Positions 23,922-63,471 of a DNA stretch of 64,000 nucleotides are shown piece by piece. Under the pieces are notes generated by a model that had not been told where the DNA came from, did no database searches, and saw nothing but the letters and a program-made list of their open reading frames with translations. How positions within the stretch are numbered: the stretch's first letter is position 1; every line of letters begins with the position of its first letter. Where the stretch lies: NCBI RefSeq assembly GCF_003752415.1, contig NZ_RKHG01000001.1, forward strand, positions 372,001 through 436,000, written 5' to 3'. The translations under genes were made by a program, and so were the position numbers. Source of the DNA: Luteococcus japonicus (lineage in GTDB: Bacteria; Actinomycetota; Actinomycetes; Propionibacteriales; Propionibacteriaceae).

Positions 23922-25967
23922 ATGGAGCAGACCACATCGAGCCCAGCCCTCGGCCCGGCCTGGGAGGACCTGCGCAGCTACATGGCACAGCCCCGGCTCG
24001 TGAGCCTGGACATCGCCCCCGACGGACAGTGGCTGGCCGTCGGGGTCCAGACGCCCAACGAGAAGTCGACCGACTACCGGACCAATCTGTGGCGTGTACC
24101 GACCACCGGCGAGGGCCCCTCCCGCCAGCTGACTCGTGGCGTGGAGGGCGACGCACTGGCAGCGATGCTGCGCGACGGCTCTCTGCTGTTCACCTCCGGC
24201 CGCCAGGCGCCGTCATCAGACGGTGGAAGTGATCACGACAAGGCCCTGTGGTGCCTGCCCGCCGGAGGTGGCGAGGCGCACGTCGTGGCACAGCGCCCAG
24301 GCGGTTGGCAGAGTGTGCTGTCCGCGCGCGAGGCAGACCGGCTCGTGTGCGGCGTCGGCATCGCGACGGGACTCGACGGTCTGGAGGAGGACGACACGCT
24401 GCACCGACGCCGTGCCGAGGCCAAGGTGTCCGCGATCCTGCACGAGGGCGCCGGTGTGCGGCACTGGGACCATGACCTGGCGCGCCAGACCACTCGCTTC
24501 GTGACCCTCGGCGTGGACCTGGACCGGGACGATCCGGTGGATTCCACCAGCCTGCGGCTGGCCAGCCCGGAACTGGGCGTCGGCCTCTCAGCCTCCGCCA
24601 CCCTGTCCTCCCACGGCGACTTCCTGATCACCAGCCATGACGAGCCCCAGGCCGGCGCCGGACGGAGCTCGCACCTGGTGCGCCTCGGCCTGGACGACGG
24701 CAGCGTCGAGAGGATCGCCAACGACGACTCCTCGGAGCTGGAGGACCCGGTGCTCAGCCGCGACGACCGCCTGGTGGCCTGCACGCGCTATGAGCGGGGC
24801 ACCCCGGAGAGCGCCCCGCGGTTGTACCTCCACCTGGTGGACCTCGAATCGGGCCGGGGCCGTGACCTTGCCTCGGACTGGGACCGGTGGGCCACCCCGG
24901 CCGCCTTCAGCCCCGACGGGCAGATCCTCTACGTCACGGCCGATGAGGACGGCGAGTGCCCGGTCTTCGCCGTCGACATCGCCACCGGGAGCGTGCGCCG
25001 CCTGACCCAGCACGGCGCACACAGCCAGGTCTGCCTGGCACCGGAGGGCGGGGCGCTGTACGCCCTGCGCTCCGCCTGGGACGAGCCGGGTTCGGTGGTG
25101 CGGATCGACCCCGCGACGGCCACCAGCAGCGTGGTCTACGCGCCCGTCACCGGCGCGGACCTTCCGGGCCGCCTGGAGCGCCTCGAGGCGCGGGCCGAGG
25201 ACGGAACGCGCATCCCCGGTTGGCTCGTGCTCCCGGACGGCTGTGATGCGCGGCACCCGGCACCCCTGGTCCTGTGGGCCCATGGCGGTCCGCTCAATTC
25301 GTGGAATGCCTGGAGCTGGCGCTGGTGTCCGTGGCTGCTCGTGAGCCAGGGCTACGCGGTTCTGCTCCCGGACCCGGCTCTCAGCACTGGCTACGGCCGT
25401 GGCTTCATCCAGCGGGGCTGGGGACGCTGGGGCTGCGAGCCGTACCAGGACCTGATGGCGGTCACCGATGCCGTGGTGGCACGTGAGGACGTCGATGCCG
25501 AACGTACCGCGATGATGGGCGGTTCCTTCGGTGGCTACATGGCCAACTGGATTGCGGGCCACACGGACCGCTTCCGGTGCATCGTGAGCCATGCCAGCCT
25601 CTGGAACCTGGACAGCTTCGGCCCCACCACGGACATTCCCTGGTACTGGGGGATCGAGTTGGGGGAGCGGATGATGCGGGAGCACTCTCCGCACCGCTTT
25701 GCCGACCAGATCACCACACCGATGCTGGTGGTGCACGGTGACAAGGACTATCGCGTCCCGATCGGGGAGGGATTGGCGCTGTGGTGGGCGCTGACCAGCA
25801 ACCATCCGGGGCCACCGGAGAGCCTGCCGCACAAGTTCCTCTACTTCCCCGACGAGAACCACTGGGTACTCACCCCGCAGCATGCGACCATCTGGTACGA
25901 GACGGTGCGCGCCTTCCTCGCCGAGCACCTGGAGGGCCAGCCCTTCGTGCGTTCGGACCTGCTCTGA
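23922..25967 (+). CDS. S9-family peptidase (dipeptidyl/acylaminoacyl peptidase type)
   Basis: A 681-residue protein. An N-terminal beta-propeller of about 400 residues precedes a hydrolase domain: oxyanion region LVLWAHGGPLNSW, nucleophile in MMGGSFGGYMANW, acid in VVHGDKDYRVP and histidine in FPDENHWVLTP. A GAGGAGG site precedes ATG 23922, 11 bp after cpfC, so it may be co-transcribed. No signal peptide is visible. Confidence 0.9.
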   Translation: MEQTTSSPALGPAWEDLRSYMAQPRLVSLDIAPDGQWLAVGVQTPNEKSTDYRTNLWRVPTTGEGPSRQLTRGVEGDALAAMLRDGSLLFTSGRQAPSSDGGSDHDKALWCLPAGGGEAHVVAQRPGGWQSVLSAREADRLVCGVGIATGLDGLEEDDTLHRRRAEAKVSAILHEGAGVRHWDHDLARQTTRFVTLGVDLDRDDPVDSTSLRLASPELGVGLSASATLSSHGDFLITSHDEPQAGAGRSSHLVRLGLDDGSVERIANDDSSELEDPVLSRDDRLVACTRYERGTPESAPRLYLHLVDLESGRGRDLASDWDRWATPAAFSPDGQILYVTADEDGECPVFAVDIATGSVRRLTQHGAHSQVCLAPEGGALYALRSAWDEPGSVVRIDPATATSSVVYAPVTGADLPGRLERLEARAEDGTRIPGWLVLPDGCDARHPAPLVLWAHGGPLNSWNAWSWRWCPWLLVSQGYAVLLPDPALSTGYGRGFIQRGWGRWGCEPYQDLMAVTDAVVAREDVDAERTAMMGGSFGGYMANWIAGHTDRFRCIVSHASLWNLDSFGPTTDIPWYWGIELGERMMREHSPHRFADQITTPMLVVHGDKDYRVPIGEGLALWWALTSNHPGPPESLPHKFLYFPDENHWVLTPQHATIWYETVRAFLAEHLEGQPFVRSDLL

Positions 25968-53555: not shown

Positions 53556-53627
53556 GCCCCTGACGAGCGTTTCCGCTTGCCAGGGGCTACTTCACAGGGG
53601 TGGGCGATACTGGGTTCGAACCAGTGA
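53556..53627. repeat. attL: left 72-bp direct repeat
   Basis: Matches 63355-63426 at 71 of 72 positions; the only difference is at 53597 (G versus A). It carries 27 bp of the tRNA-Val 3' end (53601-53627) and the tRNA terminator hairpin. Confidence 0.93.
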
Positions 53628-53636
53628 ACGGGGGTT

Positions 53637-53762
53637 GTGTCGGATACTGAGTGCCACAAGGGAAAGCGCCGTCTGACTAGGTGTTGCTCCAAACAGTGAC
53701 GCTGGACTATGATGGACGCGAGTGGACAGGAATCCCCTTCCATCCGACACGTATCCGACACG
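53637..53762. promoter_or_regulatory. Left arm: candidate integrase arm-type sites and int promoter region
   Basis: GTGTCGGATA at 53637-53646 is the reverse complement of TATCCGACAC. The direct pair TCCGACACGTATCCGACACG is at 53743-53762. The same 20-mer occurs at the right end (63319-63338). Position and repetition fit arm-type binding sites of a tyrosine integrase. Confidence 0.6.
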
Positions 53763-53779
53763 AAACGGGGCATCGGGCA

Positions 53780-54895
53780 GTGGCCAAGCGATCCTTCGGG
53801 CAGATCACCAAGCTCCCCAGCAAGCGGTTCCGTGCCCGCTACACCGGCCCCGACACCCGGCTGCACAACGCACCGCACACCTTCGACACCCGCGAGGATG
53901 CCGAGGCCTGGCTGGCCGACGAGCGACGGCTGATCAGCGCCGGGGGATGGGTGGCCCCGGAGGACCGGAAGGCGGAGGCCAAGCGCGTCGTCCTCACGTT
54001 TGGCGAGTACGCCGAGCGGTGGCTGGCCGGCCGCGACCTGAAACCCCGCACCCGGGAGCACTACCGCAAGCTGCTGGACCATGAGCTATTGCCCACCTTC
54101 GAGAACATGCCGCTGAGGGCAATCAGCTCCGAAGCGGTCAAGGACTGGCACGCGGGCATGGGCAGAGCCCGCCCCACCCTCCGCAGTCACTGCTACGGGT
54201 TGTTGCGGACGATTCTGGGGTGCGCCGTGGATGACGAGAAGATCCCGATGAACCCATGCCACATCCGCGGCGCCGGCAACGTGAAGCGCGCCAAGAAGGT
54301 CGAGCCCGCCACGCTGGCGCAGCTGGAAGCCATCGCGGCCGCAATGCCCGAGCGCTACCGGCCCATGGTCATGCTGGCGTCGTGGTGTGCGCTGCGCTTC
54401 GGGGAGCTCGCCGAGCTGAGGCGCAAGGACCTGGACCTGTCCAACGGCGTGATCCACGTCCGTCGAGGCGTGGTGCGCGCCGAGCATGGAACCGTCGTCG
54501 GGACCCCGAAGTCCGAGGCTGGCATCCGTGACGTGGCGATCCCCCCGCACCTGCTGCCGATGCTGAAGGAACACCGCGCCAGCATGGCCTCGTCGTCGCC
54601 CAACGCGCTGTTGTTCCCCGCCGCTGATGGCGTCTCCCACATGGCTCCCAGCTCGCTCTACCGGGTGTTCTACCCCGCCCGGGCAGCTGCTGGCCGGCCT
54701 GACCTGCGCTGGCACGACCTGAGGCACACCGGCGCCGTGCTCGCCGCCCAGACCGGCGCCACGCTGGCCGACCTGATGAACCGCCTAGGCCACTCGACCC
54801 CCGGTGCCGCACTGCGCTACCAGCACGCGGCACAGGACCGAGACGCCGAGATTGCCCGCAAGCTCTCCCAGATGATGACAGGACTCACCGCATGA
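53780..54895 (+). CDS. int: Tyrosine-type site-specific integrase
   Basis: A 371-residue protein. An N-terminal arm-binding region (about 1-60), a SAM-like core-binding domain (70-165) and a catalytic domain with R206 (CALRFGELAEL), K244, H312 and R315 (WHDLRHTGA), H338 (LGHST) and Y347. All active-site residues are present, so it should be active. GTG 53780 is chosen; the frame is open to 53681, but that text covers the arm sites. It lies next to attL, and its stop overlaps the next start by 4 bp. Confidence 0.93.
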   Translation: MAKRSFGQITKLPSKRFRARYTGPDTRLHNAPHTFDTREDAEAWLADERRLISAGGWVAPEDRKAEAKRVVLTFGEYAERWLAGRDLKPRTREHYRKLLDHELLPTFENMPLRAISSEAVKDWHAGMGRARPTLRSHCYGLLRTILGCAVDDEKIPMNPCHIRGAGNVKRAKKVEPATLAQLEAIAAAMPERYRPMVMLASWCALRFGELAELRRKDLDLSNGVIHVRRGVVRAEHGTVVGTPKSEAGIRDVAIPPHLLPMLKEHRASMASSSPNALLFPAADGVSHMAPSSLYRVFYPARAAAGRPDLRWHDLRHTGAVLAAQTGATLADLMNRLGHSTPGAALRYQHAAQDRDAEIARKLSQMMTGLTA

Positions 54896-55365
54896 CCGAT
54901 CAGTGGCTTGATCCCGACCAGTGGACCATCGACTTCACGGTGAGCGTGACGTGCGACCACCGCAACCCCGACACCGGGACGCCCATGTCCGACGCCCCGC
55001 CCGCCGTGGTCTACCAGCACGCCCATGTCGTGCCGACCGGCCTGCGGATCGGATATAGCCCGTGGCGGGTGCCACCTGGCCCGTGGGCAGAGAACTTCCA
55101 GAGCAACATCGAGGTGTGGAAGTTCCGCGGCGTCACCAGGGAGGAGTTCTGGTCCGGTTCCTACGTCGCCGAGCACGGCATCCCGAAATCCCGGCACGAT
55201 ATCACCTGCGACGACTGCGGCACCATCGTCCCGTTGCTCGACAACAAGTTCATGTGGATCTGCGACCAGCTGATGCAGGCCGGTCTGGACAAGATCAGCC
55301 TGCACGGACTCAAGTTGGCGGCGCAAGCTGCCCAGAAGTTGACAGCAGTGGACACTAGCGTCTAG
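54892..55365 (+). CDS. Satellite protein of unknown function
   Basis: A 157-residue protein. It has an aromatic-rich N-terminal half (CDHRNPDTGTP, IGYSPWRVPPGPWAENFQSN), a C-x-x-C pair in TCDDCGTIV, and a helical C-terminus. No family recognised; metal binding by H and C residues is possible. It starts inside the integrase stop (ATGA), so it is coupled to int. Confidence 0.75.
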   Translation: MTDQWLDPDQWTIDFTVSVTCDHRNPDTGTPMSDAPPAVVYQHAHVVPTGLRIGYSPWRVPPGPWAENFQSNIEVWKFRGVTREEFWSGSYVAEHGIPKSRHDITCDDCGTIVPLLDNKFMWICDQLMQAGLDKISLHGLKLAAQAAQKLTAVDTSV

Positions 55366-55421
55366 TGTCTAAACCGTAACCGGGCCGACCCGGGCATTCA
55401 TCATGCCCGAGGAGGCCCGAA

Positions 55422-55622
55422 GTGCGTTCCGCACCCAAACCCGCATCCGTCACCATCGCCGAGCTCGCCGAGCAGTGGGGCTGCTCCGACAAGACGGTCC
55501 GCCGCCTGATCAGCTCCGGCCAACTGCCGGCCTACCGCGTCGGCAAGCGCCTGATCCGCATCCTCCAGGAGGACGCCGACAGCTTCGCCCGGCGCATCCC
55601 TTCCGCCAAGGTCGTCGCCTGA
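55422..55622 (+). CDS. Excisionase-like helix-turn-helix protein (HTH_17)
   Basis: A 66-residue protein. VTIAELAEQWGCSDKTVRRL, ISSGQLPAYRVGKRLIRI and a short tail are the MerR-like winged HTH of Xis/AlpA-type proteins. It would direct excision or control the downstream operon. GTG 55422 has GGAGG upstream; the stop overlaps the next ATG (TGATG). Confidence 0.88.
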   Translation: MRSAPKPASVTIAELAEQWGCSDKTVRRLISSGQLPAYRVGKRLIRILQEDADSFARRIPSAKVVA

Positions 55623-56011
55623 TGGCGGCACGAGACAGCCGCCCGGGCTTCGAGCGTCCATACGAGGAAGCCGACCGTGCCGCCATCCGGCGCCTGATCC
55701 ACCAGATCGACGAAGACCCCAAGTTCCTGGACAAGATCTACAACCGCATGGTGGCCGATCTGATCCAGAAGCAGATGGCATCACACTGGTATGCCGCCGC
55801 AGCGGACTACGAACGCAATGGAGATCGCTACACAGCTGCCGCCTGCCGCGTTCATGCCCACGTCCTGAAGGACGGGAACCTTCTGGACGACGAGATTGCC
55901 GACGACATGCTGATCTACCGAGCCGCCCCCACGCCCCTGCCAGATATCGCCCCCATGAGGGACGAACTGCTGGACATGATCGAGGGCGAGCTGGAGGCGC
56001 GACATGTCTGA
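55622..56011 (+). CDS. Satellite protein of unknown function, upstream of the helicase gene
   Basis: A 129-residue acidic, mostly helical protein without a recognised family. It overlaps the excisionase-like gene by one base and the AAA ATPase gene by 8 bp, so it belongs to the replication block. It could be a replication accessory or loader; no motif supports this directly. Confidence 0.72.
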   Translation: MAARDSRPGFERPYEEADRAAIRRLIHQIDEDPKFLDKIYNRMVADLIQKQMASHWYAAAADYERNGDRYTAAACRVHAHVLKDGNLLDDEIADDMLIYRAAPTPLPDIAPMRDELLDMIEGELEARHV

Positions 56012-57176
56012 TCTGCAAGCCTTCAGCGCCACCGACTTGATGGCAATGAACTTCCCGGAGCCCCGCTGGGCCGTCCGCGGCCTCATCTGCGAAGGACTGA
56101 ACCTCATCGTCGGTGCCCCGAAGTTCGGCAAGTCCTGGTTCTGCCTGAATCTGGCTGTCGCCATTGCTTCTGGCGGCAAGGCACTGGGGCAGATCGAGGT
56201 CGAGAAAGGCTCCGTACTCTACTGCGCCTTGGAGGACACTCCCCGACGTCTCCAGTCGCGCCTGAACATCGTCCTGGGGGGTGACGAGGTGCCCGACGGC
56301 ATCACCTTCGTCACCGAGATGCCGCGGATGCCCGAGGCCACCAACCTGATCGCTGAATGGCTCCACGAGCATCACGACGCCCGCTTGGTGATCATCGACG
56401 TGCTGCGCAAGGTGCGCTCTGCTGCAGATGGACGCACCGGGCGCTCTGCCTACGACGAGGACTACGACTCGCTGGGCTCCATCAAGCGGCTGGCGGACGA
56501 GTTCGGCATTGCCGTGCTCGTCGTCCACCACACCCGGAAGATGGCCGACGAGAGCGACGTCTTCAACGAGGTGGCCGGATCCACCGGCATCACGGGCGCG
56601 GCCGACGCCATCTTGGTGGCCAAGCGGTCCCGCAATGCCGCTGATGCCGTGCTACACCTCACTGGCCGTGACGTGGTCGAGTCGGAGTTTGGGTTGCTGT
56701 GGGACGAGACCCGCTGCCAGTGGAACCTGGCTGGCGACTCGCTGAAAGAGGCCGCCCACGCCGCCGTCACCGCCAAGGTGATGGGCAACGTCGGAGACAC
56801 GATGCTGCAGATCATCGAGCTGGCCGCGACCTATCCGATGGGCATTCGTGCTGCCAACGTGGCCGATGCCTTGTCGATCCCCGAGGACACCGCCCGCCGG
56901 TACATGTCCCGAGCGGAGAATGAGGGGCGCCTGGAGCGAATCGGACGCGGGATCTATGCCAGTGTCCGAAGTGTCCCGAGTGTCCCATTGCCTAGTCAGG
57001 AGCACATTGCCGATGTGATCCCACTGTCCGGAGTGTCCCGTTCATCCCGGCCTAATGACGAATCGGACAACGGGACACATCGGACACCGGACATATGCGC
57101 AACGTGTCACGAACCGATGGCCATCGTCGAGCCAGGGCAGACCACACACCCCAACTGTGGAGGTGGGGACCAGTGA
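56004..57176 (+). CDS. RepA-like AAA ATPase/helicase with winged-helix and zinc-binding tail
   Basis: A 390-residue protein. A RecA-fold ATPase (AAA_25/RepA type) has Walker A VGAPKFGKSW (G37-S44) and Walker B LVIIDV (128-133), then VLVVHHTRK and GSTGITGAADA. A winged-helix region (about 265-315) follows. The C-terminal tail has C-x-x-C (ICATCHEP) and a later H/C pair, suggesting a zinc site. It likely drives satellite DNA replication. A cluster of short repeats lies within its 3' part. Confidence 0.87.
   Translation: MSDLQAFSATDLMAMNFPEPRWAVRGLICEGLNLIVGAPKFGKSWFCLNLAVAIASGGKALGQIEVEKGSVLYCALEDTPRRLQSRLNIVLGGDEVPDGITFVTEMPRMPEATNLIAEWLHEHHDARLVIIDVLRKVRSAADGRTGRSAYDEDYDSLGSIKRLADEFGIAVLVVHHTRKMADESDVFNEVAGSTGITGAADAILVAKRSRNAADAVLHLTGRDVVESEFGLLWDETRCQWNLAGDSLKEAAHAAVTAKVMGNVGDTMLQIIELAATYPMGIRAANVADALSIPEDTARRYMSRAENEGRLERIGRGIYASVRSVPSVPLPSQEHIADVIPLSGVSRSSRPNDESDNGTHRTPDICATCHEPMAIVEPGQTTHPNCGGGDQ
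56961..57094. repeat. Iteron-like cluster inside the AAA ATPase gene
   Basis: AGTGTCC at 56961, 56970 and 56979 (9-bp period), ACTGTCC at 57023 and AGTGTCC at 57032 (again 9 bp), then inverted GGACA(C/A/T) at 57065, 57073, 57082 and 57089. Direct copies on the left and inverted copies on the right surround about 25 bp. Candidate replication origin recognised by the encoded ATPase. Confidence 0.6.
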
Positions 57177-57379
57177 GCAACCGACGCAAGGCCCAAGCGA
57201 TCCAAGCCCTTGATGCCATGTGTGACCAGCTACCCATCCCCGGTGGCTGCCTCGACTGCAACGCCGAGCAGACCATGACCCGTGACAGCAACGGCGTCTA
57301 CCGCATCACCATCCACCACGAAGACACCTGCCCGTGGCTGGCCGGCATCGAACGACGAAAGGGGGAGACCACATGCTGA
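57173..57379 (+). CDS. Small cysteine-containing satellite protein, unknown
   Basis: A 68-residue protein. A helix (RRKAQAIQALDAMCDQL) and a C-x-x-C plus H-x(3)-C set (GGCLDCNAE, IHHEDTCPW) suggest a small zinc domain. It starts at GTG 57173, overlapping the helicase stop by 4 bp, and its own stop overlaps the HNH start. Not a recognisable small terminase. Confidence 0.72.
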   Translation: MSNRRKAQAIQALDAMCDQLPIPGGCLDCNAEQTMTRDSNGVYRITIHHEDTCPWLAGIERRKGETTC

Positions 57380-57852
57380 AGCCCTGCGCCGTCTGCGGTG
57401 AGCTCTCCGAACAGAGCCGCTGCCCCGAGCACCAGCCCAAGAAGGCGAAGGTGCGCACCGACATCGACAAGTACCACTGGAAGCAGCTGTCACGACGGGC
57501 GCGCCGGATGCAACCCTTCTGCTTGCTCTGTGGCACCACCGACAACCTGCAGGCCGACCACAGTCCCCGCGCCTGGGCACGCTCCATAGCCGGCCTCCCG
57601 ATCCGACTGGTGGACGTGAACGTCCTCTGTGGCCCCTGCAACAGCGGCGCGGGATCAAGCCAGCCCAGAAGTGCCCGCTATGACCTCTGGGAAGCCACAG
57701 GAGCCGATCTGACGGCCTCAACGCCTGACCAGACGCTGCTCAGTACCCAGGGGGGTAGGGGTGCGCACGAGGCTTCTCCCCTCCGCGGTGAGGCAAAGTT
57801 TCGCTCTCAGTTGGGAATGACTCCCAATAAGGCGGCGTCATGGCGGGGCTGA
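57373..57852 (+). CDS. HNH endonuclease
   Basis: A 159-residue protein. An N-terminal C-x-x-C zinc knuckle (CAVCGELSEQSRCPEH) precedes an HNH core: CLLCGTTDNLQADHSPRAWA and NVLCGPCNSG. Phage HNH proteins next to terminase assist cos cleavage and packaging (as HK97 gp74). ATG 57373 has GGGGGAG upstream. It overlaps the terminase start by 13 bp. Confidence 0.88.
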   Translation: MLKPCAVCGELSEQSRCPEHQPKKAKVRTDIDKYHWKQLSRRARRMQPFCLLCGTTDNLQADHSPRAWARSIAGLPIRLVDVNVLCGPCNSGAGSSQPRSARYDLWEATGADLTASTPDQTLLSTQGGRGAHEASPLRGEAKFRSQLGMTPNKAASWRG

Positions 57853-59303
57853 GGGCTGGCGCGAAGACCGCGATCACGGCTGAACCGCTTGACTTCACTG
57901 GTTGGCCGACGGACCGAGCGGAGCGTCGGGTCAGGTTCGTGGAGCAGTTCGTCATGGTCACCAAGGGCGTCGGTGCCGGAGAGCCCTTCAAGCTGCGCAT
58001 CTGGCAGAAGGAGATCATCACTGGCGCGTTCGCACCTGGGCGCCGGTCGGCTCTGGTGAGCCTGCCGCGTGCGAATGGCAAGTCGGCCTTGGCTGCTGCC
58101 CTTGCCGTTGCTGAGCTGTTCTGTGGCCCGTCATCGGCTGAGGTGCTGGTGGTGGCTTCTGACCAGCGTCAGGCGTCCATCGTGTTCAACCTGGCGCGTC
58201 GGATGATCGAGATGAACCCGGAGCTGGCCGAGCGGACGCAGATCTACAAGGACCGCATCGTCGTGCCCGAGAACGACGCGACGATGATGGCCCTTCCTGC
58301 TGATCCTTCGGCGCTGCACGGGTGGGACCCGTCACTGTTGATCGTCGACGAGCTCCACGTCGTGACCGAGGACGTGTGGGAGGCCGTCACGTCGGTGTCC
58401 GGCAAGCGTCCCGAGTCGCTGGTGCTGGCCATCTCCACCCCGGCCACGTCGTCCGACAGCGTCATGTGGAAGCTCGTCCAGCATGGCCGCGACGAGACCG
58501 ACCCAAGCTTCTTCCTGAAGGAGTTCTCCGCGCCGGACGGCTGCGCTATCGACGACCGGGAGGCGTGGCGGCAGGCCAACCCCGCGTTGGGCGACTTCTT
58601 GACCGAGGACGGGTTGGCCAGCGTGATGAAGACCATGCGGGAGCCGAACTTTCGAATCCTCAGGTTGGGGCAGTGGACGAAGGGAACGGATGCCTGGCTG
58701 CCCTTCGGGGCGTGGGCCGATTGCGCTGCCGAGGATGAGCGGGTTGTTGGTCCCCGTGAGCGGGTCTGTCTCGGCTTCGACGGCAGCGCCAGCGGTGACA
58801 GCACGGCGCTGGTGGGCTGCACCATCGGTGAGCGTCCGCACCTGTTCGTCGTCGGCCTGTGGGAGAACCCCGGCAAGGACGACTGGCGCGTCCCGCGGGC
58901 CGAGGTGGACCGGGCGATCAGGAAGGCCTTCGAGGACTTCAACGTCGTCGAGCTGGCCTGTGATTTTTGGGGCTGGCGCTCCGAGATCGAGACCTGGGCG
59001 AAGCGTCACGGCGCCCGTCGGGTGATCGAGTACGACACCTCCTACCGCAAGCGGATGTGCCCGGCCACCGACAAGTTCTACGCGGCCGTGATGGACCAGA
59101 ACCTGACCCACGACGGCAACGAGGACTTGGCCGCCCACATGGCCCACGCTCACGTCACCGCCACACCCCAGGGCGACGCGATTGTGAAGCAGAAGCGCAT
59201 GTCCGCCCGCAAGATCGACCTGGCTATTGCGGCCATCGTCGCGCACGACCGAGCAACCAACACCACCACCACCAAGCGCCGGCGCTCCGTCGGCTTCGTC
59301 TAG
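57840..59303 (+). CDS. Terminase large subunit
   Basis: A 487-residue protein. The packaging ATPase has Walker A-like SLPRANGKS (74-82) and Walker B LLIVDE (166-171). The RNase H-like nuclease domain has VCLGFDGSASGDS, LACDFWGW and MSARKIDLAIA. HK97-like Terminase_1 type. No small-terminase gene is recognised upstream, the place where it normally lies. Confidence 0.94.
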   Translation: MAGLRAGAKTAITAEPLDFTGWPTDRAERRVRFVEQFVMVTKGVGAGEPFKLRIWQKEIITGAFAPGRRSALVSLPRANGKSALAAALAVAELFCGPSSAEVLVVASDQRQASIVFNLARRMIEMNPELAERTQIYKDRIVVPENDATMMALPADPSALHGWDPSLLIVDELHVVTEDVWEAVTSVSGKRPESLVLAISTPATSSDSVMWKLVQHGRDETDPSFFLKEFSAPDGCAIDDREAWRQANPALGDFLTEDGLASVMKTMREPNFRILRLGQWTKGTDAWLPFGAWADCAAEDERVVGPRERVCLGFDGSASGDSTALVGCTIGERPHLFVVGLWENPGKDDWRVPRAEVDRAIRKAFEDFNVVELACDFWGWRSEIETWAKRHGARRVIEYDTSYRKRMCPATDKFYAAVMDQNLTHDGNEDLAAHMAHAHVTATPQGDAIVKQKRMSARKIDLAIAAIVAHDRATNTTTTKRRRSVGFV

Positions 59304-59315
59304 AAGGACACACAC

Positions 59316-60623
59316 ATGAACGATCTCGAGACCATGATCAGCACCCTGCAGATCATCGACAACGACGCAGTCCGCCGGACGCGATGCAACACCTACTACA
59401 ACGGCAAGCAGCCCTTGGCCTTCCTGGCTCCCGAGGCCCGCACCGCCCTGGGCAACCGCTTCGGGGTCCTGAACTCCAACACCTGCCGCGTTGCCGTGAA
59501 CGCGCTGGTGGAGCGCCTTCGGATCACCGGCTTCACCGGACCGGAGGCCATCGCACTGTGGGAGGACTGGCGACGCAACGACCTGGACCAGCTGGCCCCG
59601 GTCGCCCATCGTGAGGCCCTGATCACCGGCGAGGCCTTCGTCATCGTGTGGGCCGACGCCGCTGGCAACCCGCAGGTCACCATCGAGAGCCCGGAACAGG
59701 TAGCCGTGCAGCGCCACCCTGCCACCGGGACCGTCACCGCTGCCGCCAAGCGCATCGAGCACAAGGACCACACCGAGGCCGTGTTGTACCTGACGGACCG
59801 CATCGTGAAGTTCCGTTCGCAGGCCACCGGCGCCGTCCTGCACGGCTTCGAGGCCGTCGAGACCATTCCCAATCCGTTGGGCATGGTTCCGGTGGTGCCG
59901 CTGCGCAACACTGAGCGCCTGACTGGCCCCGCCGCCAGTGAACTGGATGACCTGCTGCCCCTGGTTGATGCCCAGTCCAAGCTGTTGGCCGACTTGATGG
60001 TGGCGTCCGAGTACGCCGGCCGGCCGCGCCGCTGGGCAACCGGCATCGAGCTGGAAGAGGAGGACGTCCTCGACGCCGACGGCAACCCGACCGGGGAGAC
60101 CCTCGAGGTCAACCCCTACCCCGAGGGCTCGCGGATGATGGTTGCCGAGCCCCAGGAGGCAAAGTTCGGGCAGCTGCCCGCCGCCGACCTCGCCGGTTAC
60201 GAGGCTGCCATCCGCGTCCTGCAGGCGCAGATCAGCGCGGTCTCTGGGCTCGCTCCGCACTACTTGGGGGTCCACGGGGATCAGCCTGCCTCCGCCGATG
60301 CGCTGAGGGCGTCTGAGGCCGCCCTGGTGGCGAAGGTGGAGGCTCGCCAGCTTGCCTTCGGCAGGGCATGGGAGGCCGTCGCCCGCCTCATGCTGGCCGT
60401 GCGCACCGGCCGACGTCCCGAGACCGTCAACGTGGCCGTCCAGTGGGCCGATGCCGCGACCCGCTCCATCGCCCAGGAGGCCGACGCCATCGTGAAGCTG
60501 TTCGCTGCCGGCCTCATCCCGCAGTCCTACGCGCTGCAGCGTCTCGGTTACTCCGACGACGACATCCGCCAGATCACTGCCGCCAGCCCGGCGACGACCA
60601 CAACCCCGGCCACCCCGGCCTGA
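59316..60623 (+). CDS. Phage portal protein (SPP1 gp6-like)
   Basis: A 435-residue protein. YYNGKQPLAFLAPEAR, NTCRVAVNALVERLRITGF and EDDLLP/DAQSKLLADLM text followed by GLAPHYLG and SADALRASEAALVAKVE are standard for SPP1-type portals. It forms the dodecameric ring for DNA entry. It starts 12 bp after the terminase; an Ala/Thr-rich C-terminal tail ends the protein. Confidence 0.92.
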   Translation: MNDLETMISTLQIIDNDAVRRTRCNTYYNGKQPLAFLAPEARTALGNRFGVLNSNTCRVAVNALVERLRITGFTGPEAIALWEDWRRNDLDQLAPVAHREALITGEAFVIVWADAAGNPQVTIESPEQVAVQRHPATGTVTAAAKRIEHKDHTEAVLYLTDRIVKFRSQATGAVLHGFEAVETIPNPLGMVPVVPLRNTERLTGPAASELDDLLPLVDAQSKLLADLMVASEYAGRPRRWATGIELEEEDVLDADGNPTGETLEVNPYPEGSRMMVAEPQEAKFGQLPAADLAGYEAAIRVLQAQISAVSGLAPHYLGVHGDQPASADALRASEAALVAKVEARQLAFGRAWEAVARLMLAVRTGRRPETVNVAVQWADAATRSIAQEADAIVKLFAAGLIPQSYALQRLGYSDDDIRQITAASPATTTTPATPA

Positions 60624-60640
60624 CCCGAAGGAGAACCAGC

Positions 60641-61099
60641 ATGACCAACGAGAACAAGATCACCGAGACCACCCCCGAGACCACCGACGAGGCCACCGAG
60701 ACCAGTGGGTCCGGCGACGAGAACGTGACACTCGTGACAGATGTGACACCGACCGCGAACGAGGGTGTCACGACCGACGAGCCTGAGAGCTTCCCCCGCG
60801 AGTACGTCGAGAAGCTGCGCAAGGAGGCCGCCGACAACCGCGCCAAGGCGAAGGCTGCCGAGGCTCTGCAGCATGAGGTCTTCGGCCTTCGTGTCGCCGC
60901 CCTGGGCAAGCTCCACGACGCCAGCGACATGCCCTTCGACCCGGCTCTGCTCGAGGACCCCGACAAGCTCGCTCAGGCCGTCGACGAGCTCGTCACCCGA
61001 AAGCCCTACCTGGCCCGTCAGGTGGTGGCCGGGAGTATCGGTCAGGGTGCCGCACCGGCCACCCCGTCCGTGTCCCTGATCGACGCGCTGAGGGGCTGA
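60641..61099 (+). CDS. Capsid scaffolding protein
   Basis: A 152-residue acidic protein. The Thr/Glu-rich disordered N-terminus, the helical FPREYVEKLRKEAADNRAKA coiled-coil region and a short C-terminus match scaffold proteins that precede the capsid gene in phages of this type. GGAGAACC lies upstream of ATG 60641. No prohead protease gene is recognised. Confidence 0.8.
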   Translation: MTNENKITETTPETTDEATETSGSGDENVTLVTDVTPTANEGVTTDEPESFPREYVEKLRKEAADNRAKAKAAEALQHEVFGLRVAALGKLHDASDMPFDPALLEDPDKLAQAVDELVTRKPYLARQVVAGSIGQGAAPATPSVSLIDALRG

Positions 61100-61154
61100 C
61101 AAGCGACCCTCACGGGCTCACACTAAGTAGCACGACCAAAATAGGAGTTAAGCA

Positions 61155-61544
61155 ATGGCTGAAGTAGGTACATGGGGAGCACCATCGGTTGGCATGTTCC
61201 CGAAATGGCAGGGAGGGATGTCCGTCGACTTCAAGAAGGACAGCGACAGCGATGTCTACGCCATCACAGGAATTGATCGTGACGAGTGGACGATTATCGG
61301 CTTCGAGTGGCGCGCCAGTGACCGTCAGTGGGGTGACGTGAATGCCATCGTCGTGCCCAGCGAGGTCAGGATTAGTGAATCACCGACGAGGATCGAAGCC
61401 ACGGCTTTGCGGCTGCACGATGTCAGCATCACCGACATCCTGCCGAAGATCGTCCACAAGGGTGATTTCCGTATGCGGCGGAGTCATCTGGCGAACTCCG
61501 AGATCACGATCACCTCCTTGGGTGACGTGCCGGAGCAGGATTGA
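61155..61544 (+). CDS. Gene of unknown function between scaffold and capsid, possible cargo
   Basis: A 129-residue protein: MAEVGTWGAPSVGMFPKWQG, a charged SVDFKKDSDSDVYAITGIDR, then mixed beta/helical text. It does not resemble structural phage proteins. Two sampled 60-base lines (61201-61320) are about 57 percent G+C, lower than the flanking capsid genes. It has its own AGGAGTT ribosome-binding site and a terminator directly behind it. These signs suggest an inserted accessory gene. Confidence 0.7.
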   Translation: MAEVGTWGAPSVGMFPKWQGGMSVDFKKDSDSDVYAITGIDRDEWTIIGFEWRASDRQWGDVNAIVVPSEVRISESPTRIEATALRLHDVSITDILPKIVHKGDFRMRRSHLANSEITITSLGDVPEQD

Positions 61545-61569
61545 CACGTTACCCCCTAGGGGTATCATG

Positions 61570-61599
61570 GGGGCGTCGGGTTGATCCCGGCGCCCCTTT
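61570..61599 (+). terminator. Intrinsic terminator between the possible cargo gene and the capsid gene
   Basis: GGGGCGTCGGG, loop TTGAT, CCCGGCGCCCC (11 bp, one G-T pair) followed by TTT. A second short palindrome, TACCCC-CTA-GGGGTA, lies just before it (about 61550-61565). It would end or attenuate transcription ahead of the capsid gene. Confidence 0.75.
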
Positions 61600-61662
61600 C
61601 GCTTGTGCCCCTGGCGGGCAGGCAATCACCGTAGATTCCAACCCCGCCTCAGGAGGCACATC

Positions 61663-62529
61663 ATGTCCGAACCCGTCATCACCCCCCCGGTCCACATCGA
61701 GACCGCGGCCGAGAACCCCAGCATCATCAAGGATGCCGTCGCCAAGATCCTCGTCGAGCCCCTGCAGGCCGCGAGCGTGGTCCTGTCCAACGGCCCGAAG
61801 ATCTTCGACAGCTCCGAGCCGCTGATCATCCCCAAGCTGACCACGAAGACCACCGACCCCGGCTGGTACGGCCAGGGTGAGGAGATCGGCACCGCCGACG
61901 TTGACTTCGACGAGATGACGCTGCTGCCCATCACCCGCAAGTCCCTCAAGGTCATCAGCGTGGTGTCGAACGAGCTGCTGCGTCAGGCCAACGCGGTGAA
62001 CCTCGAGGGCGTCATCCGCCAGAAGCTCGTCACCGACGTGACCAACAAGCTCGACGATGCCCTGCTGAAGGGTGACGGCGCTGGTGACACCATCACTGGC
62101 ATCCTGAACCAGGCCGGCGTGACCAAGGTCACGGCCGATCCCGCCACCATCGACGGGTTCCTCGCCGGTCTGGCTGCCATGGCCGCCGTCGAGGAGCAGC
62201 CCAGCGTTGCGTTCATGTCCGGCGCCGACTACTTCAAGATCCTGGGCCTGAAGGACGGCCAGAACCGTCCCCTGGTGCAGCCCGACGTGACCCGCGCCGC
62301 CGGCATGCAGCTGCACGGCGTGAAGCTCGTGGTGACCAACAAGCTGGCCGCGGGCAAGACCATGCTGGTGAACATGTCCGAGGTGGCCATCGTGCGCGAC
62401 CTGGCCGCCCAGGTGACCCCGCTGAAGGAGGCCTTCGCCACCAAGGACTCCACCGGCATCCGCGTCGTCACCCGCTACGACCTGGGCCTGCTGCGCCCCG
62501 AGGCCGTCGCCATCGTGAGTGCCGCCTGA
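61663..62529 (+). CDS. Major capsid protein, HK97 fold
   Basis: A 288-residue protein. PLIIPKLTTKTTDPGWYGQG (E-loop region), VISVVSNELLRQANAVNLEG (spine helix), DDALLKGDGAGDTITGILNQ, ADYFKILGLKDGQNRPL and the C-terminal TGIRVVTRYDLGLLRPEA are typical HK97-type capsid blocks. AGGAGG lies upstream of ATG 61663. The protein is at the short end of the family, which fits a small capsid. Confidence 0.93.
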   Translation: MSEPVITPPVHIETAAENPSIIKDAVAKILVEPLQAASVVLSNGPKIFDSSEPLIIPKLTTKTTDPGWYGQGEEIGTADVDFDEMTLLPITRKSLKVISVVSNELLRQANAVNLEGVIRQKLVTDVTNKLDDALLKGDGAGDTITGILNQAGVTKVTADPATIDGFLAGLAAMAAVEEQPSVAFMSGADYFKILGLKDGQNRPLVQPDVTRAAGMQLHGVKLVVTNKLAAGKTMLVNMSEVAIVRDLAAQVTPLKEAFATKDSTGIRVVTRYDLGLLRPEAVAIVSAA

Positions 62530-62837
62530 TGATGCCGACTCCCGAGTCCGTGGCGGCCTTCCTGGGCCGTGGTGACGATCCAGCGACCGTCGCCGCGGCT
62601 CGGGAGACCCTGCCCATCGTCGCCGCCATGGCGAGGTCCTACACCCGCGACCGTGGCTTCGACGAGAGAGACCCCGCCTATGACGTGGCCGCAGTCCTGG
62701 TGACCGCTACGGCCCGCTTGATGGCCAACCCGGAGCAGCTCGCCAGCACTGTCGGGGAAGTGACGCTGGCCGGATGGCAGGGCTGGACGTTGGCTGAGAC
62801 GTTCGTCTTGAACCGCTACCGGGTGAGGTCAGCATGA
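62529..62837 (+). CDS. Head-tail connector (gp6-like) protein
   Basis: A 102-residue helical protein. VAAFLGRGDDP, MARSYTRDRGFDERDPAYDV and WTLAETFVLNRYR match the short connectors that stack under the portal. It overlaps the capsid stop by one base (ATG 62529 or 62532) and the next start by 4 bp. Confidence 0.82.
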   Translation: MMPTPESVAAFLGRGDDPATVAAARETLPIVAAMARSYTRDRGFDERDPAYDVAAVLVTATARLMANPEQLASTVGEVTLAGWQGWTLAETFVLNRYRVRSA

Positions 62838-63160
62838 TGGGCTTTCGCACGAAGATTCGCTTCGCTCGGCAGGGCCAGGAAATCGACTGGGACTCTCACG
62901 GCAACCCGATCTACGGCCCCAGCGTCGATGTCACCTACTGGGGCGAGATCCAGCCCTTGTCGAGCGTCGAGAAGGGACCGATCAGCGCCCAGAGCACCGT
63001 CACCCTGCAGAAGGTCTACCTTCCCGCCCACGCGGCCCTGAGCGGCGCCGACCGCGTGACCATCGACGGGCGTACCTACGAGCTGACCGGCGATCCCGAG
63101 CGACACATGGTCGGTGGGCATGTCCACCACCAGACCGTCGTCGTGAAGCACGTCACCTGA
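62834..63160 (+). CDS. Head-closure (stopper) protein
   Basis: A 108-residue beta-rich protein. FARQGQEIDWDSHGNPIYGP, VDVTYWGEIQPLSSVEKG and DRVTIDGRTYELTGDPERH are typical of head-completion stoppers. It is the last gene of the element; the normal next genes (tail terminator, tail tube, tape measure) are absent. ATG 62834 or 62837. Confidence 0.8.
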   Translation: MMGFRTKIRFARQGQEIDWDSHGNPIYGPSVDVTYWGEIQPLSSVEKGPISAQSTVTLQKVYLPAHAALSGADRVTIDGRTYELTGDPERHMVGGHVHHQTVVVKHVT

Positions 63161-63272
63161 GACTTCTGCGTCAACGCGCCCAAGTCGAGACGGTCAGGCT
63201 CGATGTTTCCGGGAGCGAAGGGCGGGAGCCGGTCCAAGCGACGGAGCCAGCATTGATCGCACCTGCGCAGAA
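63161..63272. other. Short non-coding stretch at the end of the structural operon
   Basis: 112 bp with no open frame of family character. I see neither a truncated tail gene nor other features before the terminator. Confidence 0.5.
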
Positions 63273-63316
63273 CAGAACACCCCCAGCAGCCGTGGAAAGC
63301 TGCTGGGGGTGTTCTG
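63273..63316 (+). terminator. Strong terminator after the head-closure gene
   Basis: A perfect 17-bp stem (63273-63289 with 63300-63316) and a 10-nt loop. It closes the structural operon just inside the right border. Confidence 0.85.
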
Positions 63317-63318
63317 CG

Positions 63319-63338
63319 TCCGACACGTATCCGACACG
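63319..63338. promoter_or_regulatory. Right arm: candidate integrase arm-type sites
   Basis: TCCGACACGTATCCGACACG is identical to 53743-53762 in the left arm, 16 bp inside the right direct repeat. Confidence 0.6.
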
Positions 63339-63354
63339 GGCCGAAATGAGGACG

Positions 63355-63386
63355 GCCCCTGACGAGCGTTTCCGCTTGCCAGGGGC
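63355..63386 (-). terminator. Terminator hairpin of tRNA-Val
   Basis: GCCCCTG pairs with CAGGGGC, with an inner AGCG/CGCT stem, 14 bases downstream of the tRNA on the minus strand. It is duplicated in attL (53556-53587). Confidence 0.7.
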
Positions 63387-63426
63387 TACTTCACAAGGGT
63401 GGGCGATACTGGGTTCGAACCAGTGA
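63355..63426. repeat. attR: right 72-bp direct repeat
   Basis: Matches attL at 71 of 72 positions. Bases 63400-63426 are the 3' part of tRNA-Val (T arm and acceptor), so insertion left the tRNA gene intact. Confidence 0.93.
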
Positions 63427-63471
63427 CCTCTTCGGTGTGAACGAAGCGCGCTACCACTGCGCCAATCGCCC
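63400..63471 (-). tRNA. tRNA-Val (anticodon CAC)
   Basis: Full cloverleaf: acceptor GGGCGAT with ATCGCCC, D arm GCGC, anticodon stem CTTCG/CGAAG with loop TTCACAC (CAC) and a T arm with TTCGAAC. The CCA end is not encoded. Its 3' 27 bp are the core of the satellite attachment site. Confidence 0.95.

Follow-up and report, generated by a model that had tools for sequence, protein, structure and literature searches.

The 64-kb window of Luteococcus japonicus analysed here (the window being the whole stretch of 64,000 bp) contains an element inserted at a tRNA-Val gene, which is very probably an intact-looking integrated satellite of the capsid-encoding kind, with its own head and packaging motor, which would take its tail from a helper phage. 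Six observations form the basis of this reading: the gene set, the anatomy of the attachment (att) sites, a phylum-wide family of elements of similar order and size, the separation of satellite portals from phage portals, a site between the HNH and large terminase subunit (TerL) genes in many relatives, and the coupling of the right half of this site to the type of TerL. The conserved non-coding bipartite site and its coupling to TerL type are novel in the present analysis. We infer that the site is a cos, that TerL reads a half-site without a small terminase subunit (TerS), and that the element depends on a helper. The features of the element are listed below in order of position, with genes assigned by PHROGs and Pfam searches.

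53556-63426: whole element, 9,871 bp, bounded by two 72-bp direct repeats
53556-53627, strand not given: attL, left 72-bp direct repeat, from a repeat search
53743-53762, + strand: putative integrase arm-type site, TCCGACACG twice with an 11-bp period, exact copy at 63319
53780-54895, + strand: tyrosine integrase (PF00589 2.5e-15, phrog_1 4.9e-67); an alternative earlier GTG start at 53681 is possible
54892-55365, + strand: open reading frame (ORF) of no assigned function, 157 amino acids, no relative in the family set
55422-55622, + strand: excisionase-like HTH_17 (helix-turn-helix) protein, 66 amino acids (PF12728 1.9e-11; phrog_66 1.6e-7)
55622-56011, + strand: ORF of no assigned function, 129 amino acids, no relative in the family set
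56004-57176, + strand: RepA-like AAA_25 ATPase, presumed replication initiator or helicase (PF13481 4e-31)
57173-57379, + strand: small ORF of no assigned function, 68 amino acids, from the gene call
57376-57852, + strand: HNH endonuclease (phrog_589 1.1e-4, weak)
57749-57812, + strand: putative cos, left half AGGGGGGTAGGGG at 57749 and right half GAGGCAAAGTTTCGCTCTCAGTT at 57790
57840-59303, + strand: TerL, type A (phrog_9 1.3e-98; PF03354)
59316-60623, + strand: portal, SPP1 gp6-like (PF05133 2.3e-35; phrog_104 1.1e-101)
60641-61099, + strand: scaffolding protein (phrog_4708 0.0016, weak; relatives in 72 of 75 rows of the profile searches)
61155-61544, + strand: ORF of no assigned function, 129 amino acids, between scaffold and capsid, no relative in the family set
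61663-62529, + strand: major capsid protein, HK97 fold, 288 amino acids (PF05065 5.9e-31)
62529-62837, + strand: head-tail adaptor, Ad1-like (phrog_137 6.2e-4; relatives in 71 of 75 rows)
62834-63160, + strand: head closure, Hc1/stopper-like (phrog_501 1.4e-10)
63277-63312, strand not given: hairpin 3' of the last gene, 14-bp perfect stem, fold energy -30.0 kcal/mol
63319-63338, + strand: putative integrase arm-type site, second copy, tandem TCCGACACG
63355-63426, strand not given: attR, right 72-bp direct repeat, from a repeat search
63398-63471, - strand: tRNA-Val (cac), full length, at the right end of the element

As seen in this list, all 14 genes called are codirectional, and four of them are ORFs of no assigned function. 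The initial annotation, made from the sequence alone, had already named the integrase, excisionase-like, RepA-like, HNH, TerL, portal, scaffold, capsid and two head-completion genes, and the searches bear it out, with weak matches for HNH and scaffold. Its statement that the integrase active site and the head genes are intact also holds: motif contexts were found both in the integrase (arginine, HxxR and tyrosine) and in TerL (Walker A/B), and the reading frames of the assigned genes are uninterrupted. No tail, lysis, repressor, protease or TerS gene was recognised in the element by the PHROGs and Pfam searches, in agreement with the same annotation. For TerS, none was seen between HNH and TerL or by family search of the element genes; the sole TerS PHROG match came from the 66-residue helix-turn-helix protein (9.3e-5), weaker than the excisionase match of the same protein (1.6e-7), though a TerS outside the known families may have escaped such a search. 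The PHROG matches of the RepA-like ATPase include primase/helicase fusions, over the ATPase part, and Pfam gave no primase domain. Likeness of the HNH protein to its relatives covers approximately the first 94-121 residues, the remainder overlapping the putative cos. Fold prediction for the capsid, made from 9 sequences, reached a mean pLDDT (predicted local distance difference test score) of 52.

The element bounds given previously, 9.8 kb between 72-bp direct repeats at tRNA-Val, were reproduced. The two repeats are identical at 71 of 72 nt (one mismatch) and start 9,799 bp apart in a host genome assembled as a single contig of 3.45 Mb, of which the window covers bases 372001-436000. The right repeat, attR, takes in 29 nt at the 3' terminus of tRNA-Val together with 43 nt of the sequence that follows, and att repeats of 17-58 nt were found in relatives versus 72 here. 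In the 64-kb window, TCCGACACG is confined to the tandem pair adjoining each att site; these pairs, which the initial annotation had missed along with the non-coding site at 57749-57812, are putative integrase arm sites. As a side observation, the 43-nt part of att outside the tRNA includes an inverted repeat, so that the element carries its own copy of the downstream stem of the tRNA. G+C content is 65.8% in the element and 67.5% in the remaining window. A 414-nt joined-flank query for an empty site matched 191 of 197 family genomes, the listed matches being to the tRNA-Val part; the left flank was unconserved outside the own genome, and no clean empty allele was obtained. In the relative G006, the tRNA and 43-nt flank are contiguous at 90% identity. 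The 'strong terminator' previously placed at the end of the element is the 63277-63312 hairpin, which is strong but without a T-run and was not reported by the terminator scan.

Relatives of the element were found in many Actinomycetota. Within the same taxonomic family, a TerL search of 198 genomes (E up to 1e-40) matched 9 genomes, own included, at 11 places. Apart from the window, these places correspond to eight syntenic elements (L013, L015-L021) spread over six genomes, plus a contig fragment (L014) and a lone TerL (L022). The repeats of the eight syntenic elements are 17-48 bp long and lie at tRNA genes or elsewhere, the 17-bp repeat of L013 being weak. A portal-alignment scan of genome contigs gave at least 65 loci, to which the figures on contig loci refer. 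By title, 64 are actinobacterial and one is a metagenome-assembled genome labelled Acidobacteria (L055), perhaps a mis-binned contig; three (L023, L060, L082) duplicate other contigs of the set. A longest repeat without N was present in 37 of the 65 loci. With no size filter applied, 36 of these repeats span 9.4-11.8 kb and one (L068) spans 16.1 kb, and in 33 of the 37 the repeat overlaps a called tRNA. Similar elements are present at many other tRNA sites, where the initial annotation had proposed to look for the same gene order. Boundaries were assigned in 45 rows, of which 43 are distinct, a 9-12.5 kb filter being applied to 36 contig loci, and the 43 distinct elements measure 9,471-11,827 bp (median 10,526). 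IMG/VR holds one 9.5-kb contig of the satellite family, L012 (IMGVR_UViG_2889882248_000001), which is kept there as a virus contig.

Approaching the family from the capsid gave a similar picture. When 396 genomes of the phylum were searched with a capsid profile (cut-off 1e-20), 8 matched, own included. Seven loci were sampled from six of the seven other matching genomes, and the same module was seen in 6 of 7; four of these six are repeat-bounded at 10.0-10.9 kb, L127 being the same contig as L035. The seventh locus, L126 (G351:C7:145500-165400), has integrase, excisionase-like, RepA and capsid genes between two tRNA-Glu genes about 8.4 kb apart. Its capsid is related and no TerL or portal was recognised there; this element may represent a satellite type of the phylum that brings only a capsid.

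The recurring gene order is int-xis-(repA)-HNH-TerL-portal-scaffold-capsid-adaptor-(closure). In gene-content profile searches of 75 rows, which include three duplicates and several rows cut by contig ends, matches were most frequent for portal (74), scaffold (72), capsid (72), adaptor (71) and TerL (68), followed by integrase (58), excisionase-like (56), RepA (38), closure (32) and HNH (10). HNH is under-called in these searches, as tblastn detects it in 62 of 65 contig loci. The longest gene of bounded rows is at most 673 amino acids (RepA), except in L086, where a longer one crosses a gap of N. In 37 of 45 bounded rows (35 of 43 distinct), no more than 0.91 kb separates att from the last head gene recognised. 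The 127 accessory genes of relatives matched 13 Pfam families, none of them a tail family. No tail family is present in the 25 listed of their 55 PHROGs; the other 30 matched at most one member each, a weak tail match being possible among them. The 25 listed are regulators, replication proteins, nucleases, head and neck proteins, one unknown and one protease, the last matched by 1 of the 127 genes. The slot of the 61155-61544 gene, presumably that of a decoration gene in many phages, is taken in relatives by other small genes or, in L019 and L020, by the closure gene; fold prediction of the 129-residue protein was unusable (mean pLDDT 32).

Two architectures can be distinguished. The integrase is codirectional in 19 elements, 0 of which have an XRE repressor cluster, versus divergent in 24, of which 17 have one (Fisher p 9e-7). 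The window belongs to the codirectional class, in which it is normal for a repressor to be missing.

In the stretch from the HNH domain to TerL, a bipartite non-coding site recurs in many elements, with the consensus GGGGnnnnnCCCC, then AGGC, 9 nt and GTTACACACC. The two half-sites start 52-57 bp apart in 31 of the 34 rows having both halves; of the 61 rows in which a right half could be placed, 27 showed no left half. Site models were trained without the tested taxonomic family, and the top match was sought on both strands of the whole locus with a 60-base tolerance. In 46 of 66 loci, this match fell within the gap between HNH and TerL, two further loci having no definable gap; under a stricter grouping, with the window in its own family and unnamed rows separate from Mycobacteriaceae, this tally is unchanged. 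A strict pattern, derived from the same data, matched 27 of 72 loci versus 13 of 360 Markov controls. HK97 has an HNH-cos-terminase arrangement, in which HNH assists the terminase in cos cutting (PMC10448857). The conserved bipartite site is best read as a putative cos.

The TerL proteins diverge deeply and were divided into type A (54-73% TerL identity to the window; 30 elements) and type B (all others; 37 elements), 1 of 68 being untyped. Type B is not one tight group, L018, L080, L025 and L042 lying at almost the same distance from the two references. TerL type changes 18 times when mapped onto the quick portal tree, versus a shuffled mean of 22.1, with 9 of 200 shuffles as low. Among 34 pairs with portal identity of at least 80%, 15 have TerL below 65%, and 14 of these 15 involve L025 or L028. 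In 33 rows picked for a clear right half, with the window left out, the 9-nt half-site gives the correct TerL type in 31, equalled in 0 of 500 permutations, and the 10 adjacent outer nt, nearer TerL and partly used in row choice, give it in 15. Independent pairs (n=8) agree in half-site and TerL in 7-8 cases and oppose in 0 (p ~0.008). The 9 nt of the window score as type A (log-odds +5.0), and its TerL is also type A.

The apparent exchange can be followed in single pairs. Over 2.3 kb in 50-base bins, the Gordonia pair L070/L072 is 82-100% identical through HNH to the left half, about 40-80% identical from the right half through TerL, and again 94-100% identical in the portal. The Mycobacterium barrassiae pair L028/L036 shows this pattern too, although its flanks are less alike. 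A matched recognition unit would be expected to give such a picture. From these patterns, the satellites appear to exchange packaging motors together with a short DNA signal, which probably marks their own DNA for packaging. Co-resident satellite pairs have no clear preference for differing TerL types, 6 of 10 being mixed, which is near chance. It is conceivable, if somewhat short of probable, that a large Actinomycetota satellite lineage packages at cos without TerS, with TerL (and HNH) reading the half-site, and that matched TerL and half-site cassettes are exchanged, setting specificity classes under one kind of head. No description of TerL-cos cassettes or of TerS-free packaging in such satellites was found in the open-licence literature searched.

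The alternative that fares best, itself rather unlikely, is that the HNH-TerL site regulates the late genes and travels with TerL by linkage only. Its location directly upstream of TerL in many elements would suit such a function, co-inheritance is expected from linkage, and the motif is absent from the phage ends examined. Nevertheless, the position corresponds to the cos place of an HNH-terminase phage, the linear record of Lilbooboo having its ends between HNH and TerS-TerL, and the half spacing is nearly constant. Additionally, the outer 10 nt ignore TerL type whereas the adjoining 9 nt follow it, with the reservation on row choice given above, and hundreds of bases separate site and TerL in some elements. 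An unlikely variant of the cos reading is that packaging requires a TerS from the helper and that the satellite supplies only TerL, HNH and the head. It would fit the lack of a recognised TerS gene in the element, and in HK97 the small terminase recognises cos (PMC10359639); against it, the half-site tracks the satellite's own TerL type rather than kinship.

A different origin, in which a prophage decayed by deletion of its tail, lysis and early regions while integrase and head genes were kept, is highly improbable. In its favour, only phage-type genes are present, no resident helper was recognised, and the 129-residue gene before the capsid is without a relative in the set. The initial annotation had held that closest relatives in the form of full-length tailed prophages, or a lack of independent elements of similar size, would speak against a satellite. 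Among the relatives examined, the closest are not tailed prophages; instead, the 43 distinct repeat-bounded elements (9.47-11.83 kb), with no tail family among the listed matches, occupy many other tRNA and non-tRNA sites across Actinomycetota and mostly end close behind the head genes. The portals point the same way. In a quick, unrooted tree with some long branches, built from 68 satellites and 11 phages chosen from 1,908 matching records, satellite and sampled phage portals are split by one branch (Shimodaira-Hasegawa-like approximate likelihood ratio test, SH-aLRT, 95). The nearest phage homologues reach 36.8% for the portal, 36.6% for TerL and 41% over two thirds of the length for head closure, from which no helper lineage can be named, and a tblastn search of 50,697 phage records with the capsid gave nothing at 1e-5. 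The ratio of nonsynonymous to synonymous substitution rates (dN/dS) is 0.08-0.27 for the portal in nine close satellite pairs, indicating purifying selection; it is 0.04-0.67 for the capsid over ten pairs and up to 0.86 for neck genes. Moreover, L019 and L020 of the same genome (G057) have near-identical head and TerL genes, unrelated integrases and RepA, and different att sites, which indicates that such elements move and recombine. That the element is an immobile, gene-transfer-agent-like or domesticated head module is hardly credible: uninterrupted head genes and the lack of a recognised lysis gene would suit one, but the integrase is uninterrupted and accompanied by an excisionase-like gene, both 72-bp copies of att and the arm-like repeat pairs are present, att sites vary among relatives, and presence is patchy (TerL in 9 of 198 family genomes, one with TerL alone; capsid in 8 of 396 phylum genomes).

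Several points weigh against the satellite reading and its packaging site. Neither excision, particle nor helper was seen. In 8 of 45 bounded rows, 1.1-2.5 kb with one to four extra genes follow the head genes. Selection is looser on some satellite genes in other pairs, as in the capsid values of up to 0.67, and dN/dS between the window and its relatives (0.15-1.03) is mostly saturated and uninformative. The host genome showed no recognisable resident helper: PF10145 and PF20155 gave 0 matches there, other tail families not being searched; phrog_9 and PF05065 matched the present element alone. As to the site, 20 of 66 loci are unsupportive (15 with no match and 5 with a match elsewhere). The window's own copy is weak, with E 0.052 when two same-family rows are in training; with these removed, the sole model match in the element is at 57744-57802 with E 0.23, and the copy fails the strict pattern. 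The ends of phages Lilbooboo and phiPsal1, which have related TerL, are without the satellite right half-site motif, and linkage alone could explain the coupling of half-site and TerL.

If the element is a satellite, its life cycle can be proposed as follows. The integrase would join the element to the tRNA-Val gene and, with the helix-turn-helix excisionase, should excise it, and the RepA-like ATPase should initiate replication. HNH nuclease and TerL would act at the putative cos 57749-57812, filling a small procapsid for which the satellite would itself provide scaffold, capsid and portal. The head would then be closed by the two neck proteins, to which the tail of a helper siphophage would attach; this phage would also supply lysis. 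These findings indicate that the capsid-making satellites of Actinomycetota are not broken prophages but a widespread lineage of their own, and they supply a predicted cos site. The natural swaps of TerL and half-site make it testable which part of the terminase selects DNA for packaging, and they bear on how satellites separate their own DNA from that of helpers and of one another. Elsewhere in the window, an ARAGORN call at 24513-24608 gives a 96-nt tRNA-Arg (ccg) of unusual sequence, possibly false.

Among known systems, capsid-forming phage-inducible chromosomal islands (cf-PICIs) are of similarly small size. The phiRv1 and phiRv2 elements of Mycobacterium tuberculosis are about 10 kb, phiRv2 lying at a tRNA-Val gene; they have protease and TerS and are not known to carry a portal or TerL. 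According to PMC10654092, they are PICI-like, and other mycobacteria have capsids related to theirs. With cf-PICIs, for example EcCIEDL933, whose features are described in parts of PMC10690885 and PMC10448857, the element shares an integrase, a helix-turn-helix excisionase-like gene, its own major capsid, portal and head-tail connectors, and TerL with HNH (the HNH match of 1.1e-4 being weak), as well as the lack of recognised tail or lysis genes. For the alpA feature of cf-PICIs, the element has the HTH_17 excisionase-like gene, with no AlpA model among the matches listed; in the place of the Pri-Rep replication initiator of cf-PICIs, it has the AAA_25 RepA-like ATPase described above. Unlike cf-PICIs, it has a scaffold and no recognised head maturation protease, no recognised TerS, and a RepA-like ATPase without a recognised primase. 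The earlier proposal of a satellite of the cf-PICI kind stands as to the satellite: the element is discrete and att-bounded, has an incomplete set of virion genes and has independent relatives. It is best read as working like a cf-PICI that lacks two listed features, protease and TerS; since neither was recognised, the element is not filed as a strict cf-PICI.

Within Actinomycetota, the precedent that is documented best is MulchRoom, with small heads of 43.7 nm and long helper-like tails (PMC10690885). MulchRoom and MiniFlayer, both Streptomyces satellites, share with the element the order TerL-portal-scaffold-capsid and, as far as that source describes them, the lack of an annotated protease; MulchRoom additionally shares an adaptor-stopper and a tyrosine integrase (7e-19). 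Their portals are homologous (27-28%; family profile 4e-42 and 4e-49) and their capsids weakly related (1e-6 and 9e-10). The family profiles of TerL, scaffold and neck gave no match to either, so a homologous packaging and head module is not shared as a whole, and unlike the element they have TerS and direct terminal repeats and measure 14.8-17.4 kb. The candidate PICIs of Mycobacterium are defined by integrase and capsid, some having terminase, scaffold and helicase and some lying at tRNA genes (PMC10654092); the section of that source on these candidates is without cos, TerL-type or two-architecture analysis. 'Predicted Actinomycetota PICIs' are also mentioned in PMC10690885. With such candidates in print, the earlier suggestion of a possibly undescribed lineage becomes uncertain, and the Mycobacterium and Actinomycetota PICIs already predicted probably include members of the present family.

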